Below, piece by piece: positions 42,674 to 48,953 of a stretch of DNA of 64,000 nucleotides; the stretch's first letter is position 1, and the number at the start of each line of letters is the position of its first letter. A program made the translations under genes and the position numbers. The stretch spans positions 124,001 to 188,000 of the forward strand of contig NZ_VIAR01000006.1 of assembly GCF_006546625.1 (NCBI RefSeq). The letters are read 5' to 3'. The notes under the pieces were generated by a model that was not told the origin of the DNA, made no database searches, and saw only the letters and a program-made list of their open reading frames with translations. Source of the stretch: Haloflavibacter putidus. GTDB lineage: Bacteria > Bacteroidota > Bacteroidia > Flavobacteriales > Flavobacteriaceae.

Positions 42674-44191
42674 TTATTCCCAATTCGGCATAAAAGCATT
42701 GGTAAAGAGCTCATTATCCTCTACATCGCCACTAAATAATAAGGAAAATATTTTGGGTGTAGCACCGTAATTATTATTTACCCTAGTAAATACAACACCT
42801 CCTTCTGTAGGAGAAAACCTACTATGGTATTCATTTTGACCTTCAACTACATCTGTTGCTATCTGTGTGGCTGCATTGGTTGCCATATTATATAAAAACA
42901 TTCTGGATTTAAATTGTCTGTAAATTTGATTTTCTGATTGGGAAATATCTCGTGAGTAGAGTACTCTATTCGCATCTGCTGTAATATCTATAGAACCGGC
43001 AGCACCTTGAATATTCTCAAGAATTACCGTTTCTTCTGAGCTAGTTGATAGTCTGTAAGTAAAAATACGCACATCGTAACCCTGATAGTTATTGGTTTTA
43101 AGCAGTAATAAATCTGTGTCAAATTCAGGAATTTCTACTTCAGAGATTAGAGAGCCATTTGTTGTTTGGTACATTAAAGTGCGGTTACTACCATCGTTAT
43201 TTATACGGTATAATTTATCAAAGTAGGGATAGTATAAATATGCACCATCATCAGACCAAGTATAGGTTATTTCTTCTAATCTAAACCCCGCTACCGGTAC
43301 TGTTGTAGTAACTTGTGTGATATTAGTACCATCTAAGTTCATTGTAAATAGCTGTGCATCTCCACCTACTGTGCGCAAAAAAGCTAGTTTTTCTACAATA
43401 TTATTTTTTCTGGGTCTAAAACTATTAGCGTTTTCACTAGTTACTTGAAATAGGTTTTCATCTACTGATTCCTCTGTAGAATCTACAGCATCTCCAGAGT
43501 AAATTATATTGTTACCGTCTTCTTTCTTTACAAAAAAGAAGGGATTTTCAAGAGCGGTAATTGTTTTAAACTCGCTTATAGCTGATTCTACAACTTCGCT
43601 ATTATCATCTTTTGCTGAAACTTGCCAAAAATATTTAGTAGATAAGCTTAAATTTTCTACCGTAAAAAAAGTATCGTTTACAATTTCAAATTCTTGCATT
43701 TCGCTAGTTGTTCCATTACGCAACTTTAAGGTATAATTAATATCATCATCTTCAGGATCGGATGCTTCCCAGATAAATTGTACATCGAGTGGTATATTTT
43801 CTGCACCATCTTCAGGAAACACAAGTTGGGGCTGTGTTGGCGCATTGTTTTCTGTATCCTTTCTTTCTAAATTGATTACTACTTGAGCTACACCGTCTTC
43901 TACTACATTTACCGGTTCAAAACCTGTCCTATATCCATCAAGCTCTGCTTGCACCGAATAATTATCTATAAGAACACCGAGTAAGGAAAACTCGCCATTC
44001 TCATCTGTAATGGTTGTTGTAGAAGCAGGATTTGTAGAGATTTTAACATTCTCAATAGGCTCACCAGTTTCTTCATCCAACACTTTTCCTGTTACAGAAC
44101 CTGTAAGTTCTAAATCTAAAGTATCTTCATTACAACCATAGATTACAAAAACCAGAAATATGCAAAAAATATAATAGTATTTAGTTTTCAT
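42674..44191 (-). CDS. multidomain lipoprotein at the end of the curli operon
   Basis: This 505-residue protein has a lipoprotein signal ending VIYGC (Cys20), followed by NEDTLD, an acidic stretch of the kind that directs Bacteroidota lipoproteins to the cell surface. A carboxypeptidase-regulatory-like beta domain spans about 30-110 (GKVLDEETGEPIENVKIS, FSLLGV). A fibronectin-type-III-like domain spans about 115-212 (QLVFPEDGAENIPLDVQFIW). A beta-propeller-like C-terminal half (about 220-505) contains TolB-type repeats such as LFTMNLDGTNITQVT and LYRINNDGSN. It lies 29 bp after csgG with no terminator between them. Its role, perhaps anchoring or binding the fibre, is inferred from position. 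Confidence 0.75.
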   Translation of the reverse strand: MKTKYYYIFCIFLVFVIYGCNEDTLDLELTGSVTGKVLDEETGEPIENVKISTNPASTTTITDENGEFSLLGVLIDNYSVQAELDGYRTGFEPVNVVEDGVAQVVINLERKDTENNAPTQPQLVFPEDGAENIPLDVQFIWEASDPEDDDINYTLKLRNGTTSEMQEFEIVNDTFFTVENLSLSTKYFWQVSAKDDNSEVVESAISEFKTITALENPFFFVKKEDGNNIIYSGDAVDSTEESVDENLFQVTSENANSFRPRKNNIVEKLAFLRTVGGDAQLFTMNLDGTNITQVTTTVPVAGFRLEEITYTWSDDGAYLYYPYFDKLYRINNDGSNRTLMYQTTNGSLISEVEIPEFDTDLLLLKTNNYQGYDVRIFTYRLSTSSEETVILENIQGAAGSIDITADANRVLYSRDISQSENQIYRQFKSRMFLYNMATNAATQIATDVVEGQNEYHSRFSPTEGGVVFTRVNNNYGATPKIFSLLFSGDVEDNELFTNAFMPNWE

Positions 44192-44220: not shown

Positions 44221-45594
44221 CTAAAAATTAAAATAATAATCTAAGCCTAAGCCAAAATTATAGTAAAAATCGTTTCTTGTTCCGTTTATAGTTCCATCTA
44301 ATTTATCACTAAACGAGATATTATGTTCGGCAAAAAGCTTTAAGCCTAACCGTCGCGAAAGGTAATATTTTAAACCTGCGCCATATTGCATTTTGAAAAA
44401 ACTATCTGTCTCCGGTTCTGTAGATTGCTCTACATTAAAAGCCATTCCGCCGCCTGCGTAAATATAAGGAGAGAGATCATCTTCTGGCAATATATTAAAA
44501 TAAGCATTTAAATTAGCATCACTAAAAATATCCGAAAATTGTTTACCGCTATCTAACTTAAATATAGAACTGGAAAGACCAAACCCTAAGTTTTTAGTTA
44601 TCTTTTTTTGGTACTCTAGCCTAGCTAAAAAACCAGGTTCTTTTTCTGTATAATCACCATCAAATAAAGTGGTACCGCCAGATATTGTAAAGTTATCTTT
44701 TGCAGTTCGCTTCTTTAAAATTCTGTTATATAACTCTATAGATTCTTCCTGCGCTTTTTCTTTATCGTAGGTTTCAACCAACTCGTTATTGGTTTCTGCT
44801 CCTTCTTTTGTTGACCAAAATCTCTCTTTTATTCCTTCTATAATCAGATCGTGAACAGCTTTTTCAATAGCATCTTTAACCGCTATTTGCAAAGGTTCAT
44901 TTCTGGTAATACCTGTTTCTGCTTCTAATAAACGCTGAAACTTAACAAATCTAAAATAACTTGCATCTAGCGATTGAGAAAGTATTGTTTTTGAAACATA
45001 TACAGTTTTTAAAATCTCTCCGTTACTGGTAGAGACTGCTCGCAAATAAATTGTAATACGATCTTGTCTATATTTTGAAGACCCACCAATACCAAAATAT
45101 CGTGCGCCAATACCACCGGTAACTATATTGGTATCGTAAGAAATTATTCCTCCTTCTAACAAAAGACCTGCATAAAGCAAAGGAGGCAAAGGAGGCTCAT
45201 TAGGGTTTAAGTTCTTTATATATTCTTGTTTTGTATTACGTATAATACTGCGCTCGGTAGATAGGTTACTAAGATTTTCTCTTTCGATAGGTAAGAAATA
45301 ACCCGAATCTTCCAAAGCTTTTATTAAAATTGTAGTGGCACCTTGCGTTACCGCGGTGCTAAACGTGCTTCCGTTTTCAACTGGCTTATATTGCCCTGTT
45401 TGATCACTAAAATTATACACTGCTACTTCTACACGATCTGCAGCCTCTGGCAAGTCTAATAAATTTTGTGTAGATTTTGAAAATTCTCCAACCCGAGAAG
45501 GGGTTTGTTGTAATGGTTGGTTAAAATAAGCGCCACAAGAATTTAGCAAAATTAGAAGGCTGGTTATTAAAACCAATTGAATTCTTTTTATCAT
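44221..45594 (-). CDS. csgG: curli secretion channel CsgG with added C-terminal barrel-like domain
   Basis: This 457-residue lipoprotein (lipobox LLNSC, Cys20) forms the outer membrane pore that exports curlin subunits. The CsgG region spans about 20-262, with VEVAVYNFSDQTGQYKP and RQDRITIYLRAVSTSNGEIL. A charged helix (263-298) links it to a C-terminal region (301-457) that looks like an OmpA-type beta barrel: FTISGGTTLFDGDY, LSPYIYAGGGMAFN and the terminal FYYNFGLGLDYYFNF, ending in Phe. E. coli CsgG has about 277 residues and lacks this part. The gene follows csgF by 16 bp. Confidence 0.9.
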   Translation of the reverse strand: MIKRIQLVLITSLLILLNSCGAYFNQPLQQTPSRVGEFSKSTQNLLDLPEAADRVEVAVYNFSDQTGQYKPVENGSTFSTAVTQGATTILIKALEDSGYFLPIERENLSNLSTERSIIRNTKQEYIKNLNPNEPPLPPLLYAGLLLEGGIISYDTNIVTGGIGARYFGIGGSSKYRQDRITIYLRAVSTSNGEILKTVYVSKTILSQSLDASYFRFVKFQRLLEAETGITRNEPLQIAVKDAIEKAVHDLIIEGIKERFWSTKEGAETNNELVETYDKEKAQEESIELYNRILKKRTAKDNFTISGGTTLFDGDYTEKEPGFLARLEYQKKITKNLGFGLSSSIFKLDSGKQFSDIFSDANLNAYFNILPEDDLSPYIYAGGGMAFNVEQSTEPETDSFFKMQYGAGLKYYLSRRLGLKLFAEHNISFSDKLDGTINGTRNDFYYNFGLGLDYYFNF

Positions 45595-45610: not shown

Positions 45611-46030
45611 TTAATTAGGAACTATTACCTGCGTCTGCTCTCCGTTTGAAGTATCAAGAATATTAATTATCAAGCCTTCATTAGATTCAAAAACTTCTAT
45701 TGCTAAACTTCCGAAACTAAAGGTGCCTGGTTGTGTTAAATCTCCTATTCCTTCTATTTGCTGCTGCAACAAACGTCGAGATATTTGACTTAGAATCTGA
45801 CTATTTAAAGACTCTCCAAATCGCTCTAATTCAGACTGTTCTTGACGGCTCGCTCCAGGAGCAGTAAACCCATTTTGCGCATTGGCAGAACTTAGCATCC
45901 ATTGGTAGTTAAATGTTTCTCCTCCAAATGCCGGGTTTATTGGCTTATACGTTAGTTGTTGTGCACTTAAAGCGCAACTAAAAAAAATAAAAGTTAAAAA
46001 GATTAAATATTTCATAGGATTTATATTCAA
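45611..46030 (-). CDS. csgF: curli assembly protein CsgF
   Basis: This 139-residue secreted protein (signal peptide 1-22, ending CALSAQ) matches CsgF, which caps the CsgG channel and places the nucleator at the surface. The N-terminal mature segment QQLTYKPINPAFGGETFNYQ, followed by SSANAQN, is the CsgG-binding part conserved with the E. coli protein. The gene overlaps csgE by 4 bp. Confidence 0.93.
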   Translation of the reverse strand: MNINPMKYLIFLTFIFFSCALSAQQLTYKPINPAFGGETFNYQWMLSSANAQNGFTAPGASRQEQSELERFGESLNSQILSQISRRLLQQQIEGIGDLTQPGTFSFGSLAIEVFESNEGLIINILDTSNGEQTQVIVPN

Positions 46031-46800
46031 TATCTTGTAATTTGTTGATTTTGTTGTTGCAAACGTTGCAAATGAGCTATAGCTCTGCTTAAAGCCGTTT
46101 GTGCCATTTGCTTTAAAAATTCTTTTCTAGGTTGGGAGAAAAATTGCCATACCAAATCATCGCCAACTTTTACACTAATTCTTGTTGTTCTGCCGCGTCC
46201 TGGCGCTTCATCTATCGTAATATTTTTAGCAGATATAATTCCTCTATTATAGTATTCTGAGTAAAAATATCGGTGGAAATCTCTACCAGCTTTTGTTAAT
46301 GTGTTTTCAATTATCAAGCCGTTAATTACAAAACCGTCCTGCGGCTTAGCTTGATCTGGAGAGTTGGCAGCCGGTTGTTCGCGCTGCGGATCAATTTCTG
46401 TTTTACCACCTTCTTCTAAAACCAATCTATCTTTACCAATAGGTTTCCCATCTTTATCATAAAGAAGCAGTGCTAAAATTATTTTTGCATCTTCATTAAA
46501 ATTTATATTTACCTGAGCCAAGAGTATTTTCTGATTGCCTTTTATAAAAAAATCATTGGCTTGACTACTTTTTGAAACGTTGCCTTTTACATCTTCCTTA
46601 AATACCATAAAATCATATTGCAATGGATAATCAGAAGGAGTCAAATTTTCTGCTGAAGCTTTAAAAGTTGTAAACTCGCTATTCTTCTCTACCAGTATCT
46701 CGGCTTTAACTTCTTTATTAAAATATTGAGCATGAAGTGTATGCATTGACATTAAAGCAAAGAGTAGACAAGTTAATTTAAAGTAGTTGTTTAGTTTCAA
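46027..46800 (-). CDS. csgE: curli chaperone CsgE with extra N-terminal domain
   Basis: This 257-residue secreted protein (signal peptide 1-24) has a C-terminal CsgE domain at about 155-250: GFVINGLIIENTLTKAGRDF, FYSEYYN and VWQFFSQPRKE match the periplasmic CsgE plug that delivers subunits to CsgG. Residues 26-128 are an additional beta-rich domain (YDFMVFKEDVKGNVSKSSQ, KILLAQVNINF, LLYDKDGKPIGKDRLVL) joined by a Pro-rich linker (129-154). The pattern of this extra domain is like the curlin inhibitor CsgH of alphaproteobacteria, a proposal based on strand pattern only. E. coli CsgE is about 129 residues. Confidence 0.88.
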   Translation of the reverse strand: MKLNNYFKLTCLLFALMSMHTLHAQYFNKEVKAEILVEKNSEFTTFKASAENLTPSDYPLQYDFMVFKEDVKGNVSKSSQANDFFIKGNQKILLAQVNINFNEDAKIILALLLYDKDGKPIGKDRLVLEEGGKTEIDPQREQPAANSPDQAKPQDGFVINGLIIENTLTKAGRDFHRYFYSEYYNRGIISAKNITIDEAPGRGRTTRISVKVGDDLVWQFFSQPRKEFLKQMAQTALSRAIAHLQRLQQQNQQITRY

Positions 46801-46812
46801 AATAAAAATCTA

Positions 46813-47334
46813 TTATTTATAACTTCGTATAATAATATCCGGCGAATTTTGTGTTTGTTTAAATTTTAAAGATTTCGTTATTTCATTTGTTCCAAAACGC
46901 TCAAAATAATTACCTCCTTCTTGTCTTAATTCGAGTGAGGCGTCTACATTACGGTCGTAAACAAAATCTTTTACAATATTATAATCTCCATTCTGAAGTA
47001 TATTGGTATATATGGTATTAGCTGTATAATCTAAATTAGCGCCGTTTTGATTCCCGTTTTGAATAAGGTTAATCTCACTAGCGTTGGTTTCTGCACTAAT
47101 AGCCGCTTGATTACCTTCACCTATCTGTCTAACAAATACAGCATTATTGGTTAAAGTAGCGTTCTTAGGATTAACACTATTATCAATACCTATAGCCTGG
47201 AACAACTCGGGCGTGGCTGCTTGAGCCTCTCCGGTTTTTTGCCCTTCTGTTTTCTCTTCTTTATAGGTTTGCGAAAAACTGTGCGAACCCACAAAAAGAA
47301 AAATAGACAAAACTATGTATGTTAAATTTTTCAT
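46813..47334 (-). CDS. CsgB-like minor curlin or nucleator
   Basis: This 173-residue secreted protein (signal peptide 1-21) has curlin-type repeats in its middle: VFVRQIGEGNQAAISAE, INLIQNGNQNGANLD and TNILQNGDYNIVKDF, each with the Gln-x-Gly-x-x-Asn pattern. It lacks the long regular array of the neighbouring curlin and has an acidic start and a basic C-terminal IIIRSYK, so a nucleator or minor subunit role like CsgB is plausible. It lies between the major curlin gene and csgE, 12 bp before csgE. Confidence 0.75.
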   Translation of the reverse strand: MKNLTYIVLSIFLFVGSHSFSQTYKEEKTEGQKTGEAQAATPELFQAIGIDNSVNPKNATLTNNAVFVRQIGEGNQAAISAETNASEINLIQNGNQNGANLDYTANTIYTNILQNGDYNIVKDFVYDRNVDASLELRQEGGNYFERFGTNEITKSLKFKQTQNSPDIIIRSYK

Positions 47335-47477: not shown

Positions 47478-48953
47478 TTAACATCCTACACAAGGTTGAT
47501 CGATAGTGAAATCTCCTGGTGTTTGTGGGTTTTCTGGTACATTCATATCAGGAAGTTCACAGTCTATAGCATCTAAATCAAAGTCTCCACCTGGACCTAA
47601 CTGAAGGATATCAGCTACGTTACCACCATTAGGCATTCCTACTGGCATACCACCTGGAAGGTTTTGCTCTACATTGTAGCTATGACCACCACGTTGTACT
47701 AACAATATTTGGTTACACTCTCCTCTTTGAGCTGTTGTGGCACGGTTACTATCACCATCTTGGTAAGTGTTCACGATATTATCATGACCTCTTTGTGTAG
47801 AAAGCGCGATGTTATCATCACCCATTTGTCTTTGGTAAGCTTTATGGTCAAATCCGTTTTGAGCTATACCAGCTTCACTATTTGTACCACTTTGATCTTG
47901 ACGAGCATAGTTACCTGCGCCCATTGGAGAACCGTAAAGGTTTTGTACTATAAAGCCTGAGTTACCAGAGTTAGATTGATTTTGCTCTGCATAGTTAGCA
48001 TTGTTAGGATCATCACCAAACTGACGAATATCAGCTTCGTTTTCGTGACCGCTTTGGTTTTGGAAAGCCATACCTCCGTAAGAACCTAAAGTTTGAGACC
48101 CATTTGTTACGTTGTCTACTAACTGTAAGTCACTCCAAATTGGATCAAAAGAATATCCAGTAGTTACATTACCTTGTGCAATTATAGCAGAGTTACCAGC
48201 ACTTCCTGAAGATGCATCAGTAACTTGGTCTTGTTGTGCGTAGTTGTCGTCTCCGGATTGGAAAGTTCTTGCTACATTACCTGCTCCAGCTCCAAGTTCT
48301 TGTCTAACAATAGACTCGTTACCGTCACCAACTTGCTCTACTTCGGCCTCATGACCGTCTGTACCGTTTGGCCCAGCTTTTTGACGAATATAAGAAGTGT
48401 TTTCGTTACCCATCTGACGCGTCCAAGCATCATTATTATCCCAAGTTTGGAAAGTTAACGCATTGTTATCATCGCCATCTTGATCTATAGCAGCAAAGTT
48501 GTTCTCAGCATTCTGGTTATTACCTTGCTGAATTAACGCTTTGTTTCCAGCGCTAGCATCATTATTTTGCCCTTGACGCGTAATTGCATTATTCTCATCT
48601 CCCTGTTGCCAAGTAGTAGATTGGTTTTCTGAACCAGACTGGTAAACATCTGCCAGGTTTAAATAACCACTAATTGACGGGTTAGGGTTTACAGCACCAG
48701 TTTGCTTTACACGTGCCAAGTTACCTCCCATACCAGAACCATCGTTTTGGTTAGTATATACAGATTGACTAGTACCTGCCTGACGAACCCAAACTCTGTT
48801 ATCATTTCCGTTTTGAACGGACTCACCCGTGTTAGCTCCTGGTGCAGATCCAGCTTGTGCGGGAACTTGCTGAGCTGTGGGCGCTCCACTTACCTGAGCG
48901 AATCCAATCGCTCCAATCATTAGCGCTGCTGCGCTTAACATTACTTTTTTCAT
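47478..48953 (-). CDS. large CsgA-like curlin
   Basis: This 491-residue secreted protein (signal peptide 1-19, ending GAIGFAQ) is built of about two dozen ~11-residue units of the form GxxNxAxxxQ (for example QGDENNAITRQ, MGNENTSYIRQ, DGDSNRATTAQ). These are the amyloid-forming curlin repeats, with paired Gln and Asn ladders. E. coli CsgA has only five 22-residue repeats, so this subunit is roughly three times longer. The last 60 residues break from the pattern and end QPCVGC, with a third Cys at IDCELPD and one in RGECNQ. It is the first gene of the operon and follows a 681-bp gap. Confidence 0.88.
   Translation of the reverse strand: MKKVMLSAAALMIGAIGFAQVSGAPTAQQVPAQAGSAPGANTGESVQNGNDNRVWVRQAGTSQSVYTNQNDGSGMGGNLARVKQTGAVNPNPSISGYLNLADVYQSGSENQSTTWQQGDENNAITRQGQNNDASAGNKALIQQGNNQNAENNFAAIDQDGDDNNALTFQTWDNNDAWTRQMGNENTSYIRQKAGPNGTDGHEAEVEQVGDGNESIVRQELGAGAGNVARTFQSGDDNYAQQDQVTDASSGSAGNSAIIAQGNVTTGYSFDPIWSDLQLVDNVTNGSQTLGSYGGMAFQNQSGHENEADIRQFGDDPNNANYAEQNQSNSGNSGFIVQNLYGSPMGAGNYARQDQSGTNSEAGIAQNGFDHKAYQRQMGDDNIALSTQRGHDNIVNTYQDGDSNRATTAQRGECNQILLVQRGGHSYNVEQNLPGGMPVGMPNGGNVADILQLGPGGDFDLDAIDCELPDMNVPENPQTPGDFTIDQPCVGC

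Follow-up and report, generated by a model that had tools for sequence, protein, structure and literature searches.

A CsgC/CsgH-type domain fused to the curli chaperone CsgE in Flavobacteriaceae, and a predicted A10 recoding site in the csgE genes of Flavobacterium

Curli are sticky amyloid fibres. In E. coli, the CsgG channel is capped from the periplasmic side by a ring of CsgE, and CsgC patrols the periplasm. The window analysed here, a stretch of 64,000 nucleotides from Haloflavibacter putidus, carries a csgE gene that encodes 257 aa, while the CsgE precursor of E. coli K-12 has 129 aa (csgE, 1102152-1102541). This raises the question of what the additional N-terminal half is, and what it might do when attached to CsgE. 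Our analysis indicates that it is a member of the CsgC/CsgH family in the broad sense, and the explanation that we consider probable for the evidence as a whole is a fusion of two chaperones that handles curlin at the secretion channel and is recoded at an A10 run in Flavobacterium.

The curli genes of the window lie on the minus strand in the order curlin, small curlin-like protein, csgE, csgF and csgG. These genes, and the parts of csgE, are as follows.

47478-48953, minus strand: curlin (CsgA/B-like), 491 aa, many curlin repeats (Pfam Curlin_rpt in 8 stretches, E 2e-15)
46813-47334, minus strand: second, small curlin-like protein, 173 aa (NCBIfam CsgA E 2e-8, CsgB E 1e-3)
46027-46800, minus strand: csgE with an N-terminal CsgC/CsgH-like domain, 257 aa, TTG start
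46726-46800, minus strand: signal peptide, residues ~1-25 of CsgE (short basic start, hydrophobic stretch and an end in LHAQ; the same in relatives)
46405-46725, minus strand: CsgC/CsgH-like beta domain, residues 26-132 (NCBIfam, PDB profile search, AF2 and Foldseek)
46336-46404, minus strand: linker, residues 133-155 (low predicted confidence in full-length AF2)
46030-46335, minus strand: CsgE domain, residues 156-257 (Pfam PF10627 and PDB 2na4)
45611-46030, minus strand: csgF (Pfam CsgF, E 2e-33)
44221-45594, minus strand: csgG with a C-terminal outer-membrane beta-barrel-like extension, residues 305-455 (Pfam CsgG, E 1e-65)

The small protein encoded at 46813-47334 has only about one recognisable repeat, sits between the main curlin and csgE, and is a possible nucleator (CsgB-like). 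The extension of CsgG scored 28.2 bits against Pfam OMP_b-brl, slightly below the cut-off of 28.7; the window CsgG is 457 aa long, and the CsgG proteins of L046 and L047 are of similar length. Directly 3' of csgG, the gene at 42674-44191 on the minus strand encodes a putative lipoprotein of 505 aa, which has a carboxypeptidase-regulatory-like domain and a weak similarity to TolB propellers; it is a possible member of the operon. The genome containing the window is 2.92 Mb in size and belongs to the Flavobacteriaceae, with an uncultured Mesonia sp. (94% identity) and Marixanthomonas spongiae (80%) as the closest named relatives. A search of this genome found no second copy of the CsgH-like domain outside csgE.

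The first-pass annotation of this locus had placed the gene at 46027-46800 and made its product twice as long as E. coli CsgE, and both statements are correct. In the open reading frame list the gene begins with TTG, and this start and its frame are shared with the two closest relatives (L001 and L002). The signal peptide of the window protein was called by eye from sequence features. At the other end of the protein, Pfam PF10627 (CsgE) covers residues 159-252 at 66.5 bits against a gathering cut-off of 25, and a PDB sequence search matched this part to CsgE (2na4, E 1.8e-5). E. coli CsgE (PDB 2NA4, PF10627) is equivalent to this C-terminal domain and consists of that domain only. In the AlphaFold (AF2) model, residues 26-132 fold into a beta domain of their own with seven strands, at a mean pLDDT of 89.1 and a pTM of 0.81. 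The separate beta domain that had been proposed for residues 26-128 therefore stands, while its boundary moves to near residue 132, and the linker after it, modelled with low confidence, extends to about residue 155. The sequence motifs on which that proposal was based (YDFMVFK at 62-68, SKSSQ and LLYDKDGKPI) are all present. In the full-length AF2 model the CsgE half was poor, with pLDDT mostly 44-61, and we therefore make no claim about the placement of the two domains relative to each other. They differ strongly in charge, with a pI of 4.97 for the N-terminal domain and 10.15 for the CsgE domain.

Sequence comparison placed the N-terminal domain near CsgH and CsgC. Searched against NCBIfam, the full window protein matched CsgH (NF041112) at E 7e-4 over residues 33-119 and CsgC (NF007507) at E 0.008, both below the curated cut-offs. 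The domain alone matched CsgH at E 1e-4 (22.3 bits, cut-off 35) and CsgC at E 2e-3 (18.1 bits, cut-off 75). We then considered a comparison set of 42 diverse members, relatives that are 21-81% identical to the window protein. CsgH was matched by 40 of the 42, with a best E of 2.2e-12, and CsgC by 30, with a best E of 2.5e-7; with Pfam, the same members gave 18 matches to CsgC and five to CsgH. A profile built from the 42 members and searched against all PDB sequences had CsgC as its sole match (E 0.0012). With close relatives only, the PDB sequence search gave CsgC at E 0.22, and the match became significant once distant relatives were added. Its local region consists of the S/Q-rich turn and the strands after it.

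The predicted structure led to the same two proteins. A Foldseek search of the AF2 model against 350,542 PDB chains returned Rhodopseudomonas palustris CsgH (2n59, E 1.6e-5) at rank 1 and E. coli CsgC (2xsk, E 2.5e-5) at rank 3, and VIA-align gave a Z of 11.9 for CsgC (rmsd 2.5 over 94 residues) and of 10.4 for CsgH. Fold, sequence and operon context all point to kinship with CsgC and CsgH. The likeness to CsgH that the first-pass annotation had suggested from the strand pattern was thus borne out by profile search and by structure comparison, and it holds as homology within the broad family. Membership of CsgH in the strict sense did not hold, as the domain has no cysteines and lacks the key basic residues of CsgC.

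Taylor et al. (PMC4838910) took the disulphide as the basis for naming proteins CsgC-like or CsgH-like; it is formed by a CxC motif in CsgC and by distant cysteines in CsgH. There is no cysteine in the window domain, nor in 128 of the 130 N-domains examined, and we therefore file it as a cysteine-free third branch, neither CsgH nor CsgC. The same study reported R40, K57, K60 and K74 as the critical residues of CsgC (PMC4838910). These align with Q, S, N and Q in the window domain, where the alignment of R40 is an ungapped extension by two residues of the CsgC profile alignment; many relatives have K or R at position 40. As the basic residues needed by CsgC are absent, any inhibitory activity of the window domain is putative. 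Its pI of 4.97 is only 0.2-0.9 units higher than those of the window curlins (4.78 and 4.05), against a gap of about 2 units reported for CsgC/H (PMC4838910), and the electrostatic mechanism may have shifted to the CsgE half. Compared with R. palustris CsgH (PDB 2N59, NF041112), the window domain shares the seven-strand Ig-like sandwich, export from the cytoplasm and a gene in the curli operon beside the curlin genes. However, CsgH is encoded as a protein of its own and has a disulphide, whereas the window domain is cysteine-free, fused to CsgE and under the curated cut-off. E. coli CsgC (PDB 2XSK/2Y2T) likewise has the same fold, but carries a CxC motif and a basic patch and is encoded by its own gene.

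We examined 397 genomes of the family to which the window belongs. A csgE gene was present in 86, and in 85 of these the N-domain was found in the csgE reading frame; the remaining genome (G713) has a divergent version of the domain, recognised by eye. Among the 311 genomes that lack csgE there was one weak match only, inside a 1631-aa ORF. The fusion is therefore the norm in this family and no peculiarity of the window genome, and the conservation of the separate domain throughout the family confirmed that it is real, far above chance. In one genome, which encodes a fused CsgE as well, a stand-alone CsgH-like gene of 157 aa (L173:2995-3468) follows a curlin gene at a distance of 210 nt; alphaproteobacterial csgH adjoins curlin genes as well (PMC3521004). 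Outside the order, the N-domain was not detected among the CsgE proteins examined. Many of these have a LysM domain at the same N-terminal end, and others only a short leader. LysM-bearing CsgE proteins of other Bacteroidota classes (L019, L028 and L030) suggest a cap tied to peptidoglycan. In two other Bacteroidota with a short CsgE (L046 and L047), we searched for a separate csgH neighbour and found none.

Bacteroidota have been said to lack CsgC (PMC3521004). Taylor et al. (PMC4838910) mentioned CsgH in Bacteroidetes and gave neither architecture nor location, so that their set may include the domains described here. At least in the family of the window, the place of the Bacteroidota CsgH-type domain is on CsgE itself. 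We found no report in the open-access literature of a fusion of a CsgH-like domain to CsgE, or of a frameshifting or slippage site in csgE.

In the model that we favour, the protein would be a periplasmic curli chaperone that carries a CsgC/CsgH-family beta-sandwich (residues 26-132), a flexible linker and CsgE (residues 156-257) on one chain. By analogy with E. coli, and with csgG present in the operon, its CsgE part would form a ring that caps CsgG on the periplasmic side, and such a ring would crown the entrance of the channel with CsgH-like domains. The crown domains would meet unfolded curlin and stop its nucleation, and CsgE would then pass the curlin to the channel. We infer that the domain would act as an anti-amyloid guard against early aggregation, the role that had been suggested for it when the fusion was first noticed. 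The arrangement bears on how curlins of Bacteroidota stay soluble ahead of export. Capping of the channel and inhibition of amyloid may, on this view, be combined in a single step, and the natural fusion could serve as a template for amyloid export.

A homologue of CsgC/CsgH could also have come to serve as a docking or spacer module without anti-amyloid activity, positioning CsgE or recruiting curlin while nucleation goes unblocked. This is possible, though we think it rather unlikely. Neither the cysteines nor the basic hot-spot residues of CsgC are retained, the domain is acidic and the attached CsgE domain very basic, and the LysM domains of other Bacteroidota show that this end of CsgE is usable as an attachment point. 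Against this, a free, exported form of the domain is predicted from 36 Flavobacterium genes (see below), and a stand-alone copy lies beside a curlin gene; neither would make sense for a mere spacer. Divergence at individual residues is also a weak argument, since R. palustris CsgH inhibits E. coli CsgA at less than 20% identity to CsgC (PMC4838910). We retain the guarded-channel fusion as the preferred reading.

The free form is predicted from one large genus, for which we collected 299 genomes. A csgE gene was present in 72 of these, and together with a further genome from the phylum scan (G324) this gave 73 loci. The genus was called Flavobacterium by ribosomal protein L3, which is 98% identical to that in PDB 7jil, an entry that we take to be the Flavobacterium johnsoniae ribosome; ribosomal protein L1 gave no genus assignment for these loci. 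In 36 of the 73 loci (among L049, L050 and L066-L134), CsgE is not in the reading frame of the N-domain, and the switch of frame falls exactly at the linker. All 36 have the sequence [G/C]AA AAA AAA AAG in the frame of the N-domain, that is, A10 followed by G, with AAA AAA AAG at the junction. In the N-domain frame, a stop codon is met 4-14 codons beyond the point at which the run begins, and the fusion frame would be regained by one extra A or by a -1 slip on A_AAA_AAG. Seven further loci have a run of A9-A11 and are in frame; here a slip either way meets a stop within 0-6 codons, which again predicts a free N-domain. Such a run is absent from the window gene. Its longest A run is 5 and its longest T run 7, where we counted A or T runs of at least 9 as slippery, and its linker occupies the position at which the Flavobacterium genes have A10.

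The 36 split proteins represent 11 lineages below 70% identity, and in the tree the split requires at least two origins: 35 loci share a supported clade, and the remaining one (G616) belongs to a different clade. For both halves, dN/dS was 0-0.29 and mostly at most 0.1, which indicates purifying selection, and the split genes are thus not decaying. A conserved slippery run lies at the frame junction of these Flavobacterium homologues, with both frames under selection. The unslipped product of the split genes is predicted to be a free, exported CsgH-like protein. We propose that A10 recoding in the linker would yield this protein alongside the fusion. In species that make it, the free form would be expected to patrol the periplasm in the manner of E. 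coli CsgC. If both products are made, the domain would work alone as well as fused, in a ratio that is set genetically. It thus seems likely that this family fuses a CsgC/CsgH-type anti-amyloid chaperone to the secretion cap, and that many Flavobacterium make a free and a tethered product at a fixed ratio by means of the A10 run, with the free protein as the default in the majority of these species and the fusion as the default in a few.

Homopolymers are prone to replication slippage and to sequencing error, and a few relatives do have A9 or A11, so the split might reflect phase variation or error rather than programmed recoding. We consider this quite improbable. Either process should produce scatter, but one length and one frame were found in 36 of 36 loci, single-contig genomes included, and on the ground of this identity we set phase variation and assembly error aside. 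The junction reads AAA AAA AAG in every split locus although AAG makes up only 18% of the Lys codons in these genes, and no other A10 was found in approximately 204 kb of sense ORF sequence from the same loci. The selection on both halves and the repeated origin also argue for programmed recoding, as do the seven in-frame loci, for which both products are still predicted.

It is very unlikely that these are simply split genes in which CsgE is started separately, with no frameshifting. An ATG, GTG or TTG is available in the CsgE frame near the junction in 18 of the 36 split loci, but the other 18 have no possible start codon there. Moreover, the signal peptide is on the N-domain ORF only, and a separately started CsgE would have no route to the periplasm. 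Together, these observations suggest that CsgE should reach the periplasm only as the fusion.

For the slip itself, transcriptional slippage by RNA polymerase is the most likely mechanism, and -1 ribosomal slippage on A_AAA_AAG is possible. Transcriptional slippage is favoured because the run exceeds what a ribosomal heptamer needs and because no downstream RNA structure was found beyond that in controls: the mean folding z-score downstream of the run was -1.30 in split loci and -0.98 in in-frame controls, with no clear difference. For the same reason, ribosomal frameshifting aided by a stem-loop is not favoured. There is precedent for slippage on such runs, at A9 in Thermus thermophilus dnaX (PMC1088944) and at A11 in Citrobacter rodentium tssM1, where it reaches approximately 20-25% (PMC4256274). 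In both genes, transcriptional slippage on the A run gives a short and a long product, and the Flavobacterium csgE genes have the same layout in both directions, where slippage would give the long product in 36 loci and the short one in seven. Unlike tssM1 and dnaX, slippage in csgE is a prediction from sequence, and the window gene has no run. The site appears to be an unreported candidate recoding site, at which the proportion of free and tethered inhibitor would be fixed, and annotations of the Flavobacterium genomes with split genes may wrongly record a broken csgE.

The free Flavobacterium domains also bear on the kinship of the window domain, as three of them, at 36.1-38.0 bits, exceed the curated cut-off of 35 bits for CsgH. 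The fold by itself is not specific for CsgC/CsgH, since Ig-like domains of GH2 enzymes and transglutaminases tied with CsgC and CsgH in VIA Z, and a Pfam search with the window domain alone gave no match, so that the relationship became visible only through NCBIfam models and through relatives. That the domain is an unrelated Ig-like or fibronectin-type sandwich which resembles CsgC/CsgH by convergence is nevertheless hardly credible, even with many Ig-like domains equal in structural re-scoring, given that two independent CsgC/CsgH models match 40 and 30 of the 42 members while any other NCBIfam model matches at most one, that three free domains pass the CsgH cut-off, and that the domain is strictly linked to csgE in the curli operon.

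Variation in domain number was seen in one genus, in which two CsgE proteins of 404-405 aa (L171 and L172, from genomes G843 and G1011) have two tandem CsgH-like domains before CsgE.
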